Shown: positions 1,783-41,281 of the stretch, piece after piece | Numbering within the stretch: the stretch's first letter is position 1 | Layout: each line of letters opens with the position of its first letter | Assembly (NCBI RefSeq): GCF_000003605.2 | Contig: NW_003145783.1 | Location: forward strand, 122,804 to 172,163 | From: Saccoglossus kowalevskii | Lineage: Eukaryota > Hemichordata > Enteropneusta > Harrimaniidae | DNA: 49,360 bases | Direction of reading: 5' to 3' | The notes under the pieces: generated by a model | The model's database searches: none | Seen by the model: the letters and a program-made list of their open reading frames with translations, nothing else | Told to the model about the DNA's origin: nothing | Translations under genes and position numbers: made by a program

Positions 1783-3483
1783 ATGGAAGAATTCAAACAG
1801 GACGACCAACCAGCTCCACTCGGGCCTCCACCGCCATACCCATATCAGACCCAGGATGTCTTTACTCAGTCTGGACTCGGAGGATATCCCCAACAAGTTC
1901 CGGTACTAACAGCTACGTCCACGGAACCCGAAGTTGGCCCACCACAATACCCGGCTCAGACCGCTCCGTACACATGTGGAGGCCATTCACCAATTGCTCC
2001 TCCACCTTACTCAGCGTTTACAGTCGGTGGTTCACCATATTCTGGACGAGCCCAATGTGCAACTGCCATAGGGACACAGCCTGGAGGAGGTAAGTCATCA
2101 AATAATACAGTTAATTGACCCACTTTGAATATGCATTTCCTATAAATCGCGCCTTCTTGCGACGATTCGACTCGGTGACATAGAATAGTGAAAGAGGGCC
2201 GCGAACAGTGTTGACATTTCTTTTATCCACATTCATTCATTCATGTTAAAGCGCGGTGGTCGTTGCGCAGCGCGTGTTCGAATTTCATGTAAATAAACAA
2301 TGTATTTTACACGCGTTGTATACGTCGCTATGAGTCCCATATCGAACAGGACGCGGCACGACGACTGCCCCCTTTAATAATAAAATACTGTTCTTTGAGA
2401 TTCCTAGCAATCTTTCAAGAAATACAGAGTACAACTATCATCATGGTGAGATGTTAGCATATTTTAGGATTGTCAGCCATGATGCCAAACGTTCAGTCTG
2501 CTTGCACTACGATGAACCATAGACCCTCTAACTGTTAGAGGGTCTATGGATGAACCAATAAGATTACTAGGATTTGCATTATATACTACGTAGATCCCGA
2601 ACGTTATTTTACTGCTTTATCGGGGGAACTGTCGCGGCAATATGCTTTGTTCATTGTTGTGTTTTATTTACAGGTATGATGCCGATTGCGTACCGTGATC
2701 ATCCTGTCTGTCAGCAGTGTCGTTCATGTGGTCAGAATATCGTAACTAAAATCGAGTACCAACCCGGTATGATAACATGGGTAGCTGCTGGTATTACATG
2801 TATGGCCGGGTGAGTAAAGTCTACTCACTGAAGCAGTCGATTCACTTCAATATATACTATATGTTCAGACGTTTTAAAGTCGTCCAACGAGCGTTCACAT
2901 TTCATGGAAACACACAATGTATTTTACATGCGATGTACGCAACTGTGATCATTCAAGTCATTCGACGTTGTTAACGTTTTTTTAGAGGCTCCTTGTTTTT
3001 GGTGTCAAATCTGAGCTGGAATTCTGTTAATAAATTCTGTTCTGTTTTTTGTGAACAAGCTTCAACATACCCCAAGGTCTATGTTTTTAGGATGCATGTT
3101 TCTCGATAAGTTTTAGCGGCTGTGAATTTATTATTATCTACACAAACCTTACACAAACAACTACTAAACTACGGTTATCTGACACGTGGGGCAGTTTCCG
3201 TGCTAAAACTATTATTATTGCTAACAAACGTCAGTTTAGATGCATTTACCTACTTTAGAATGTAGAATACTGTATGACCTTTAACACACTCACTTGCCAA
3301 ATCACGCGAGACCTTGTAAGATGCTGAGAATTGCCTAATAATAATACATGTATACTCGTTTTATTTGACAGGGCTTGGCTTGGCTGTTGCTTGATACCGT
3401 TTTGCATACCAGCATGCAACGACGTCAACCATCACTGTCCCAATTGCAATATGTTACTAGGGAAGTATGATCGTCTTAACTAA
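1783..3483 (+). CDS. LITAF-like: LITAF-like protein 1 (184 aa, 3 coding exons)
   Basis: Coding exons are 1783-2089, 2674-2809 and 3372-3483, with GT..AG introns of 584 and 562 bp in phase 1 and phase 2. Residues 1-103 form a Pro/Tyr/Gln-rich tail with three PPxY motifs (PPPY twice, PPQY once). The LITAF domain is about 104-184: CRSC at 118-121, a hydrophobic stretch ending MAG, then [10 protein letters not shown] and HHCPNC (Cys170 and Cys173), ending at a TAA. In the family the two Cys pairs bind one zinc and the hydrophobic middle dips into the cytosolic face of endosomal/lysosomal membranes; PPxY recruits NEDD4-type ligases. One oddity is an extra Cys115 just before the CxxC. The start is the first ATG after probable 5'-UTR acceptors, and no in-frame alternative fits better. 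It is the first of five tandem paralogs. The family call is firm; the exact function is not. Confidence 0.92.
2247..2376. repeat. Family D inverted-repeat element (copy 1)
   Basis: About 130 bp inside intron 1 of gene 1. It runs from TTAAAGCGCGGTGGTCG to ACGACTGCCCCCTTTAA, so the ends are roughly inverted (GGTGGTCGT against ACGACTGCC). A near-identical copy is at 22427-22560. Non-coding MITE-like element. Confidence 0.7.
2518..2548. repeat. Perfect 15-bp palindrome
   Basis: CATAGACCCTCTAAC at 2518-2532 is followed by one base and its exact reverse complement at 2534-2548. It sits in intron 1 of gene 1, about 125 bp before exon 2. It could be a cruciform/hairpin or the remnant of an inverted-repeat element. 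Confidence 0.7.
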
Positions 3484-38750: not shown

Positions 38751-41281
38751 ATGGAAACTACAGGAAATGAACCGAATCAAACGGTGCCAGTCACGATGAC
38801 ATCACCGCCGGAATATTCACCGAGTGGTCAGGTTGATTCATCGTATTCACAGAAAGACGGTGCCCACTACCCGCCCCCACAACCCATGCAGCCGATGATA
38901 ATATACCAACAACCGCCCACCGAGGTGTACTCAGCCACTACAGCGATGATTCCTGGTATGTTGTTATAATGTGATGATGTTATCCCTGTTTGCTTTGTTG
39001 TTATCTTTTACATCTCTTAGACTAACGGATATGGTCAACTACGAAGCGATTGTTCCGGTATTATGTAGTCTGTTAAAGGGCGGTGGTCGTCGCGCTGCGC
39101 ATGTTTGTGTTGATAAACATTGATTTTCCCACAACCCAATGCGCTCTTCAAATGGAAATCACAAGTATGACGGAGGTTTGACCTGGGCGCGACTTGCACT
39201 GATTACCGCCGGTGACTCCTTCGATACCTTCCAATCACATGAAAATTACCCAATTAAAACTTGGAAATGTGTCAGTTCGTACTCGTTGATCTGCAACAGT
39301 CAAAGTCGCCATCTTTGTTTATATGAGACCTATATATCTCGCACATGCGCAGCGCGACGACTACCGCGCTTGAACGCATATTTAACCTGTGACGTAGAAT
39401 TGTTCCATAATACAAATTAAATGATTGCATATATTATATTGTAATTAATACTTACAACAGATATTTCCCAAGTTAGGAATTTGCAGAAATGTGTTTATCC
39501 TTTATCCGTGCACAACTTGACGCTCGAGACGTACGATAACAATTGTTTCTTATAAAACGCGCCATCCATCGACGAATTATTAACGTGACGTTAAAATGAC
39601 GTAGATGGGTGAAAACAATGACGTTCAAATATCATACAACTGTGTTCGGTTCAGTAGTTCGTCGTTTACGATATAGTTAATATATCTCAATAACACAAAA
39701 CTAAAAATTCCCTTCTATTGTCAGCAAACTGACATGTTTGTATTTTCTGCCATGACAAAGCAGGAGTATTTTTGCACCCCAGTCTTGCTACCTATGGAAA
39801 AATGGTTTATGGCGTCGCTTACAGCCATTCACGACGTCACATACGCGCTTCCTCGCTAGAGGGCGCAGCTCATTGGAACGGTGTGTTTGAAAATGAATAA
39901 TGACTACATCAACATAGTGTTCTAATGAACTTACACTTTATTTTCAGAATCGCAGAATCTCATATTTCGCGACACGCCATTGGCCACACACTGCCATGTA
40001 TGCCAAACTAACGTGATCACGAAGATCAAACACGACGAAGGACTGCTAACGTGGCTGATTGCCGGTACACTGTGTTTGTTTGGGTACGGCATTGTTTTAT
40101 ATTAGTATTACCATTCATTAATAGCTATCTTCATAACACTAATGTTCATTTCGTTGTCTACCTCGTTACAAGTTACCATCAAATGTATAAGTGATGTAGG
40201 TATGGCTTCACTCCGCCGCCTATGTCTTAATTCTGGTTATCTGTGTTCATTTATCCACATTTCCTCTACCAGAGGGGTAGAGGGACTATTATCTATCTGC
40301 CAAATGACCATCCAAGTCGCGCACAGCGCTCGCAAGTAATCATAAGCCAATGTTATATTCTACTTTCTGGTATGTGTGGGAAGAGCTGTATGTAAGTGAG
40401 GTGGGTATCTATTTGGATACCGGGGACGGGAAATAAAAGCGAACTTAGCCTGGAATAAATGGATGGATGGATGGATGGAAGTAAGGCATCATCTTGCGAA
40501 TAATTTAAACGTTGAATTACGGAGCGAAAATTCCATCACAACGAAATTTGCTGATTTATCTTAACGACAATTAGAACATAACCATTTGTAAAATATTAAC
40601 ATCGTCAATTTATAAATCGAAATAAGCATGTGAACGTAACAAAATCAGTATTACAAACCAAAATTACGAATTATGAACTGGTCTAATGCGTTTTGTTTCA
40701 TTCCCTTGCACACTATGTATTGACGCAACCGTTTATATCGACAATTTTAATTAATGACTTATTTCTATCACAATTTCGGTTATTTCTCATGGTTTCGAAA
40801 ATGTTATCCATGTTAACATTATATTTTCAAATCCAAAATGGTCCGTACCCTAATGTAATGTCCCATCGCAGGATTTTACTCATTGGTAATCTGAGACGTA
40901 CTACTGCAGAACATGTTGAAATAGCTCCTTGCAACTTTAGCGGATTTGACTCTTTGCATGAATTAACAGAATCTTAATTTAGCTAAAGTGTCGACTATCT
41001 CCTTGTGAGAATATACTTTCTGTTAAATTAGCTGCATCTTGAATTAGCGAAATTATAGATTAGCTAAATTAGCTAAAATAACATGCTAGCTCAAAAGACA
41101 TGTTTTACAGTATATACTAGAATGAATGTACGCGTGCACGAATTCCTGATGTTTCATCTTGTCTAATTTCAGCTGCTGGTGTGGATGCTGTCTGATCCCA
41201 TTCTGTATTGACGAGTGCAAGAACGTTGTACACTCGTGTCCGAACTGTAACCACGTTGTTGGAATATACAAGAGACTTTAA
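38751..41281 (+). CDS. LITAF-like: LITAF-like protein 5 (149 aa, 3 coding exons)
   Basis: Coding exons are 38751-38955, 39948-40083 and 41173-41281; introns 992 bp (phase 1) and 1089 bp (phase 2). The tail (1-69) is Pro/Gln/Tyr-rich with PPEY and a PPPQPMQPMIIYQQPPTEVY stretch. The LITAF domain is about 70-149: CHVC at 84-87, a GLLTWLIAGTLCLFG hydrophobic run, [11 protein letters not shown], then HSCPNC (Cys136, Cys139) and VVGIYKRL before TAA. It has the most cysteines around the membrane segment (115, 117, 119, 120, 125 and 129), which could be acylated. The second donor (GGGTACGG) is weaker than in the other genes, but the frame and paralog comparison support it. The start lacks the CAAAG context shared by genes 2-4. 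It is the last member of the array. Confidence 0.9.
39072..39373. repeat. Family D variant, ~300 bp, in gene 5 intron 1
   Basis: The left end TTAAAGGGCGGTGGTCGTCG and the right end GCGCGACGACTACC then GCGCTT are inverted copies of each other. The interior differs from the 130-bp copies, so it is a longer relative. An open frame of 93 codons spans it by chance. Confidence 0.7.
39853..39867 (+). promoter_or_regulatory. CTCF-like site in intron 1 of gene 5
   Basis: TCGCTAGAGGGCGCA, about 80 bp before exon 2, matches the site in gene 3 intron 1 at 14 of 15 bases in the same orientation. Candidate only. Confidence 0.4.
40369..40480 (+). repeat. (ATGG)n-tailed segment, possible retroelement 3' end
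   Basis: GGAATAAATGGATGGATGG runs into a (GATG)n tract (40458-40479), preceded by GGGAAATAAAAGCG. An AATAAA followed by a simple-repeat tail is how several LINE/SINE families end. No coding part is recognised upstream. It lies in intron 2 of gene 5. Confidence 0.4.

Follow-up and report, generated by a model that had tools for sequence, protein, structure and literature searches.

A head-to-tail cluster of five LITAF-family genes and further LITAF-like copies in the genome of the hemichordate Saccoglossus kowalevskii

Human LITAF (LITAF/SIMPLE) and CDIP1 are among the closest known counterparts of the genes reported here. Human LITAF binds zinc via C96/C99/C148/C151, is held by an in-plane anchor on the cytosolic side and binds NEDD4 through PPxY (PMC5142333), CDIP1 is a monotopic membrane protein of the same topology (PMC5095921), and both proteins support the scission of recycling tubules (PMC8353527). 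Here we describe five LITAF-family genes, G1–G5, in a 49,360-nt stretch of the genome of Saccoglossus kowalevskii (the window; C3647:122804-172163 in our contig numbering), together with a search for LITAF-like places in the whole assembly (572 Mb, 4,830 contigs). This adds a mapped LITAF cluster and eight further LITAF-like places in one genome.

The number of LITAF genes per genome has been described in different ways. Mammals and other invertebrates were said to have a single LITAF gene in a study that reports six LITAF-like genes in Anopheles (PMC3475675), and earlier work on some bivalves likewise described one gene each. The study of the moth Helicoverpa armigera lists 13 LITAF genes on four chromosomes, with several per chromosome and up to five on one (PMC13113599). 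Seven LITAF transcripts are given for the mussel Mytilus galloprovincialis (PMC4101229), and 24 LITAF fragments for another mussel species, part of which its authors consider possible assembly artefacts or splice variants. The mussel papers and the present genome show that an invertebrate genome can hold more than one LITAF gene; multi-copy families are already known from moth, mosquito and mussels, and the cluster is a further case.

Like human LITAF/SIMPLE, G1–G5 combine a PPxY-bearing proline-rich tail with the succession of CxxC, hydrophobic region and HxCPNC; unlike it, they come as five clustered copies among 13 LITAF-like places in the genome. With human CDIP1 they share the domain and the topology class at an identity of 35–41%, a range measured against a provisional, unverified CDIP1 sequence. 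The likeness to H. armigera lies in the several genes per chromosome; the moth differs in being an insect, and the words intron and exon do not occur in the main text on it (PMC13113599).

Gene models and exon structure of the cluster

All five genes are arranged head to tail on the + strand, each with three coding exons (Table 1), of which the first encodes the proline-rich tail, the second the CxxC half and the third the HxCPNC half of the LITAF domain. The first intron is in phase 1 and the second in phase 2 in every gene, all ten introns have GT...AG ends, and each reading frame carries a single terminal stop. The last exon comprises 35–36 whole codons plus one split codon. These models agree with a first-pass annotation of the window, which had proposed five intact head-to-tail LITAF-like genes with phase 1 and phase 2 introns at matching places, a last exon of 109 or 112 bp, and CxxC and HxCPNC kept throughout. 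The ten splice joins are predicted models. All GT and AG dinucleotides within 30 bases of each proposed splice site were tried in turn. For four of the introns only the proposed join kept the frame; the other six had 1–3 alternatives, so that frame by itself does not decide them and they depend on alignment to the other copies.

The Pfam family zf-LITAF-like (PF10601; curated cut-off 23.8 bits) matched all five proteins with 77.7–87.5 bits (E = 7.5e-22 to 6.4e-25). Further Pfam rows on G1–G5 (Inhibitor_I67, DUF6264 and Zn_ribbon_3) were all below their own cut-offs. Both cysteine pairs are present in 5 of 5 proteins, and a hydrophobic stretch of ~22 residues, as read by eye from the alignment, separates the two domain halves in each of them. 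G1–G5 are intact LITAF-family genes with diverged proline-rich tails. A six-frame scan of the window for HxCPxC gave exactly five matches, one in each gene, and profiles of the two domain exons recovered the five exon pairs, with no sixth pair passing the inclusion threshold either in the window or within 10 kb on either side. No PDB chain matched a profile of the five proteins at E up to 1. As sources of relatives, a genome-contig collection and a viral-contig collection yielded 51 and 72 stretches that matched the pattern, none of which was confirmed.

The closest structural comparison comes from M. galloprovincialis, where LITAF 4, 5 and 6 share the last-exon junction and the last 38 residues lie in one exon (PMC4101229), close to the 35–36 codons and the split codon found here. 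The mussel study recovered three genes, each in part only. In the cluster, each gene has its own last exon. For human LITAF, no statement on the position of the last junction was found in the literature searched or in a case report, as far as their available text goes, and the accessible part of PMC5343772 contains no gene-structure terms.

Inside intron 1 of G2, on the - strand (9188-9871), we observed a 227-codon open stretch that scores above the Pfam cut-off for the YqaJ-like viral recombinase domain (PF09588; E = 4.4e-6) and is probably part of a mobile element.

Table 1 Positions of G1–G5 in the window and of LITAF-like copies elsewhere in the assembly
Feature	Position	Strand	Description	Evidence
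G1	1783-3483	+	exons 1/2/3 of 307/136/112 bp; protein of 184 aa
G1 exon 1	1783..2089	+	proline-rich tail, three PPxY	gene model
G1 exon 2	2674..2809	+	CxxC half of LITAF domain	gene model, Pfam, exon profile
G1 exon 3	3372..3483	+	HxCPNC half, 112 bp	motif scan, gene model, Pfam, exon profile
G2	8996-16318	+	exons 1/2/3 of 127/133/112 bp; protein of 123 aa
G2 exon 1	8996..9122	+	proline-rich tail, two PPxY	gene model
G2 exon 2	14093..14225	+	CxxC half	gene model, Pfam, exon profile
G2 exon 3	16207..16318	+	HxCPNC half, 112 bp	motif scan, gene model, Pfam, exon profile
G3	26553-28456	+	exons 1/2/3 of 256/142/112 bp; protein of 169 aa
G3 exon 1	26553..26808	+	proline-rich tail, two PPxY, 27-bp tandem repeat at 26619-26711	gene model, repeat scan
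G3 exon 2	27343..27484	+	CxxC half	gene model, Pfam, exon profile
G3 exon 3	28345..28456	+	HxCPNC half, 112 bp	motif scan, gene model, Pfam, exon profile
G4	32923-34204	+	exons 1/2/3 of 100/145/109 bp; protein of 117 aa
G4 exon 1	32923..33022	+	short tail, one PPxY	gene model
G4 exon 2	33528..33672	+	CxxC half	gene model, Pfam, exon profile
G4 exon 3	34096..34204	+	HxCPNC half, 109 bp	motif scan, gene model, Pfam, exon profile
G5	38751-41281	+	exons 1/2/3 of 205/136/109 bp; protein of 149 aa
G5 exon 1	38751..38955	+	tail, one PPxY	gene model
G5 exon 2	39948..40083	+	CxxC half	gene model, Pfam, exon profile
G5 exon 3	41173..41281	+	HxCPNC half, 109 bp	motif scan, gene model, Pfam, exon profile
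Copy A	C3488:129.6k	-		PF10601 and G4 protein search
Copy B	C3488:133.1k	-		PF10601 and G4 protein search
Copy C	C3488:137.5k	-		PF10601 and G4 protein search
Copy D	C3488:143.8k	-		PF10601 and G4 protein search
Copy E	C3488:199.7k	-		PF10601 and G4 protein search
Copy F	C3488:204.5k	-		PF10601 and G4 protein search
Copy H	C3686			genome search
Copy I	C1210:1926994 and on	-		genome search

Further copies and the origin of the cluster

Two genome searches, one with PF10601 and one with the G4 protein (25 exon matches each), agreed on 13 places. For large families such searches give minimum counts, so that at least 13 LITAF-like places exist: five in the window, six on C3488, one on C3686 and one on C1210. 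Two contigs, that of the window and C3488, hold several copies. Both domain exons are open at 11 of the 13 places, the exceptions being D and I.

Exon 2 is present at seven of the eight other places. In all seven the exon length leaves a remainder of 1 when divided by three, two bases precede the first complete codon and the exon ends in phase 2, matching G1–G5; the phase of their starts was read from the exon's own frame and not from an exon-1 join. Genome-wide, 12 of 12 middle exons start in phase 1 and end in phase 2, and phase 2 is also the start of 13 of 13 last exons. Outside the window the last exons measure 106–118 bp (copy I not counted), copy A having 118 bp. As background, and not as a result of this work, the last coding exons of human LITAF and CDIP1 would be 109 and 112 bp long and begin at the same place.

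The identical intron code, which the first-pass annotation had pointed out in the array, is therefore not array-specific, since all seven other copies with a middle exon have equal phases. The shared exon pattern looks like the inherited gene structure of the family rather than a property of the cluster, presumably passed on from an ancestral gene, and with the same code in the genome copies and a similar junction in the mussel the fixed structure does not seem to call for an explanation of its own. More generally, an identical intron code in tandem paralogues may be plain family inheritance and is then no evidence of local origin.

Some of the other copies have features of their own. Copy D (C3488:143819-143930, - strand) is an orphan last exon that resembles those of E and F, and no middle exon for it was found upstream to C3488:154000. 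In the assembly, the last exon of copy I is interrupted by an in-frame stop, and the middle exon of this copy also codes for part of a proline-rich tail. The sequence upstream of A, C, E, F, H and I contains proline-rich stretches with PPxY, and none was assigned to B.

The first-pass annotation had also proposed a local expansion, with monophyly of the five as its test. On this reading, taken as specific to the lineage, one LITAF gene came to this place, was copied in tandem to five, and the copies then specialised. The genes are indeed adjacent and on the same strand, and within-contig copying does occur in the family in this genome: copies E and F, ~5 kb apart on C3488, are a recent pair with a domain identity of 83%, a synonymous divergence (dS) of 0.18 and a ratio of nonsynonymous to synonymous divergence (dN/dS) of 0.51. 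A tree was built from 12 domains over 81 columns, with D left out of both the tree and the dN/dS table, and with copy I truncated ahead of its last-exon break for the tree and left out of dN/dS. A clade of G1–G5 appeared in 0 of 200 bootstrap trees, and constraining the five to stand together cost 8.33 log units with an approximately unbiased P value (p-AU) of 0.22. Monophyly was thus not borne out, and it was not rejected either. With provisional rows for human LITAF and CDIP1, the only rows from outside this genome, the result was the same 0 of 200 trees, at a cost of 10.04 and a p-AU of 0.19.

Sequence divergence also speaks against a local expansion. The domains of G1–G5 are 40–52% identical to one another, compared with 28–54% to the copies elsewhere and 40–48% to human LITAF (provisional row), and synonymous sites among them are saturated (proportion of synonymous differences, pS, 0.76–0.99). 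Only 3 of the 65 self-matches of the window (E up to 1e-5) touch coding exons, all between last exons (G4–G5, G1–G3 and G1–G4; 69–71% identity). On balance, we hold the local expansion as a tentative reading, a little short of an even chance.

Since their synonymous sites are saturated, the duplications of G1–G5 look old, and the five look like old copies. This depth of divergence would fit a second reading, that of an old set: the cluster would consist of separate LITAF paralogue lines that are older than the group to which this animal belongs and have been kept together. Consistent with it, G1–G5 are mixed in the tree with copies from other contigs. The label 'window' changes 3 times on the tree against a mean of 4.0 after shuffling (123 of 500 shuffles were as low). 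The mixing may be noise, because the domain offers 81 columns, none of the 9 branches was starred and the bootstrap had not settled; we would give the old set somewhat less than half of our confidence. A bolder version, which we regard as improbable, holds that the cluster has kept several ancient LITAF paralogue lines next to each other since before the phylum arose, each with a different and partly repeat-built tail, and that LITAF and CDIP1 both survive from a clustered set that was once larger.

The self-matches outside coding exons were taken for repeats, and are mostly 162-bp repeat blocks or scattered short copies. Blocks of the ~162-bp tandem repeat lie at 1-608 and 19434-20748, in opposite orientation and roughly 65–84% alike. 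A short dispersed repeat occurs at 6528-6682, 19260-19344, 33823-33987 and 47180-47342; intron 2 of copy F on C3488 carries a repeat to which it is 78–90% identical. A 214-bp pair downstream of G2 and of G3 (16654-16866 and 29301-29514; 91.6% identity) may be a dispersed repeat or a copied piece.

Tails and proposed function

The tails of G1–G5 contain 3, 2, 2, 1 and 1 PPxY motifs, respectively. Compared with 20,000 shuffles per tail, this number is high in G1 (P = 0.0014) and G2 (P = 0.0032), and the fraction of shuffles with at least one PPxY in every one of the five tails was 0.0001. Outside the window, four tails whose ends were judged by eye have one PPxY each (P = 0.05–0.27). The first-pass annotation had suggested that the diverged tails recruit different partners, which the present data do not support. 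As PPxY is common to all five, the tails argue for one shared class of partners, by analogy NEDD4-type ligases, more than for different ones. The G3 tail contains a 27-bp repeat of 3.4 units and YPQQ-type repeats are visible by eye in H and I, so that tails may change by repeat growth.

We consider it quite probable that G1–G5 encode ordinary endosomal LITAF-family proteins, members of an old LITAF/CDIP1-type family. As G1–G5 have both cysteine pairs, PPxY and the hydrophobic stretch, LITAF/CDIP1-like work is the best guess. The product of each gene would be a small protein in which a proline-rich tail precedes a C-terminal zinc ribbon, whose hydrophobic stretch between CxxC and HxCPNC would insert into the cytosolic leaflet of endosomal membranes. 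The PPxY motifs would bind the WW domains of NEDD4-type ubiquitin ligases, and the proteins would act in sorting and tubule scission in the endosomal and recycling system. Zinc binding, topology, endosomal place and ligase binding are carried over here from human LITAF. The copies may be divided by tissue or condition, and an immune link might be expected by analogy with other species.

Several points weigh against the endosomal reading. The PPxY motifs of the G3, G4 and G5 tails, taken singly, do not exceed what composition predicts (P = 0.095, 0.067 and 0.157). The P(T/S)AP motif for the endosomal sorting complex required for transport I (ESCRT-I), which human LITAF and CDIP1 have (PMC5095921), occurs in 0 of the 5 tails. 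Some of the literature, including PMC3475675, names LITAF a transcription factor, which would be a different mechanism. That G1–G5 are nuclear transcription factors controlling immune genes or genes like that of tumour necrosis factor (TNF), as published for Anopheles LL3 (PMC3475675), seems to us very improbable, given that human LITAF and CDIP1 behave biochemically as monotopic membrane proteins (PMC5142333, PMC5095921) and that none of the five proteins has lost the hydrophobic stretch. Among the tails outside the window, that of copy H shows PTAP by eye.

Other features of the window and the genome

The window gave no Rfam match at the gathering score and no tRNA with ARAGORN. Its - strand has open stretches between 45539 and 47966 (47658-47966, 45539-45772 and 46471-46737) that contain hydrophobic segments and resemble the exons of one or perhaps two genes for small multi-pass membrane proteins; Pfam gave sub-cut-off matches for two of the three and none for the third. 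Elsewhere in the assembly, C4830 is a mitochondrial contig of 17,037 bp, on which COX1 was identified by Pfam and the other genes were named by eye. COX1 and ND6 are opposite in strand to the other protein genes recognised, and ~191-bp repeats lie near one end. The succession ATP6-COX3-ND3-ND4L-ND4-ND5 corresponds to the deuterostome type. Comparison with the lancelet gene orders given in PMC2034537 showed no clear agreement. Among the 11 genes counted, AGG is unused, and the codons AAA, ATA and AGA are consistent with Lys, Met and Ser, respectively.

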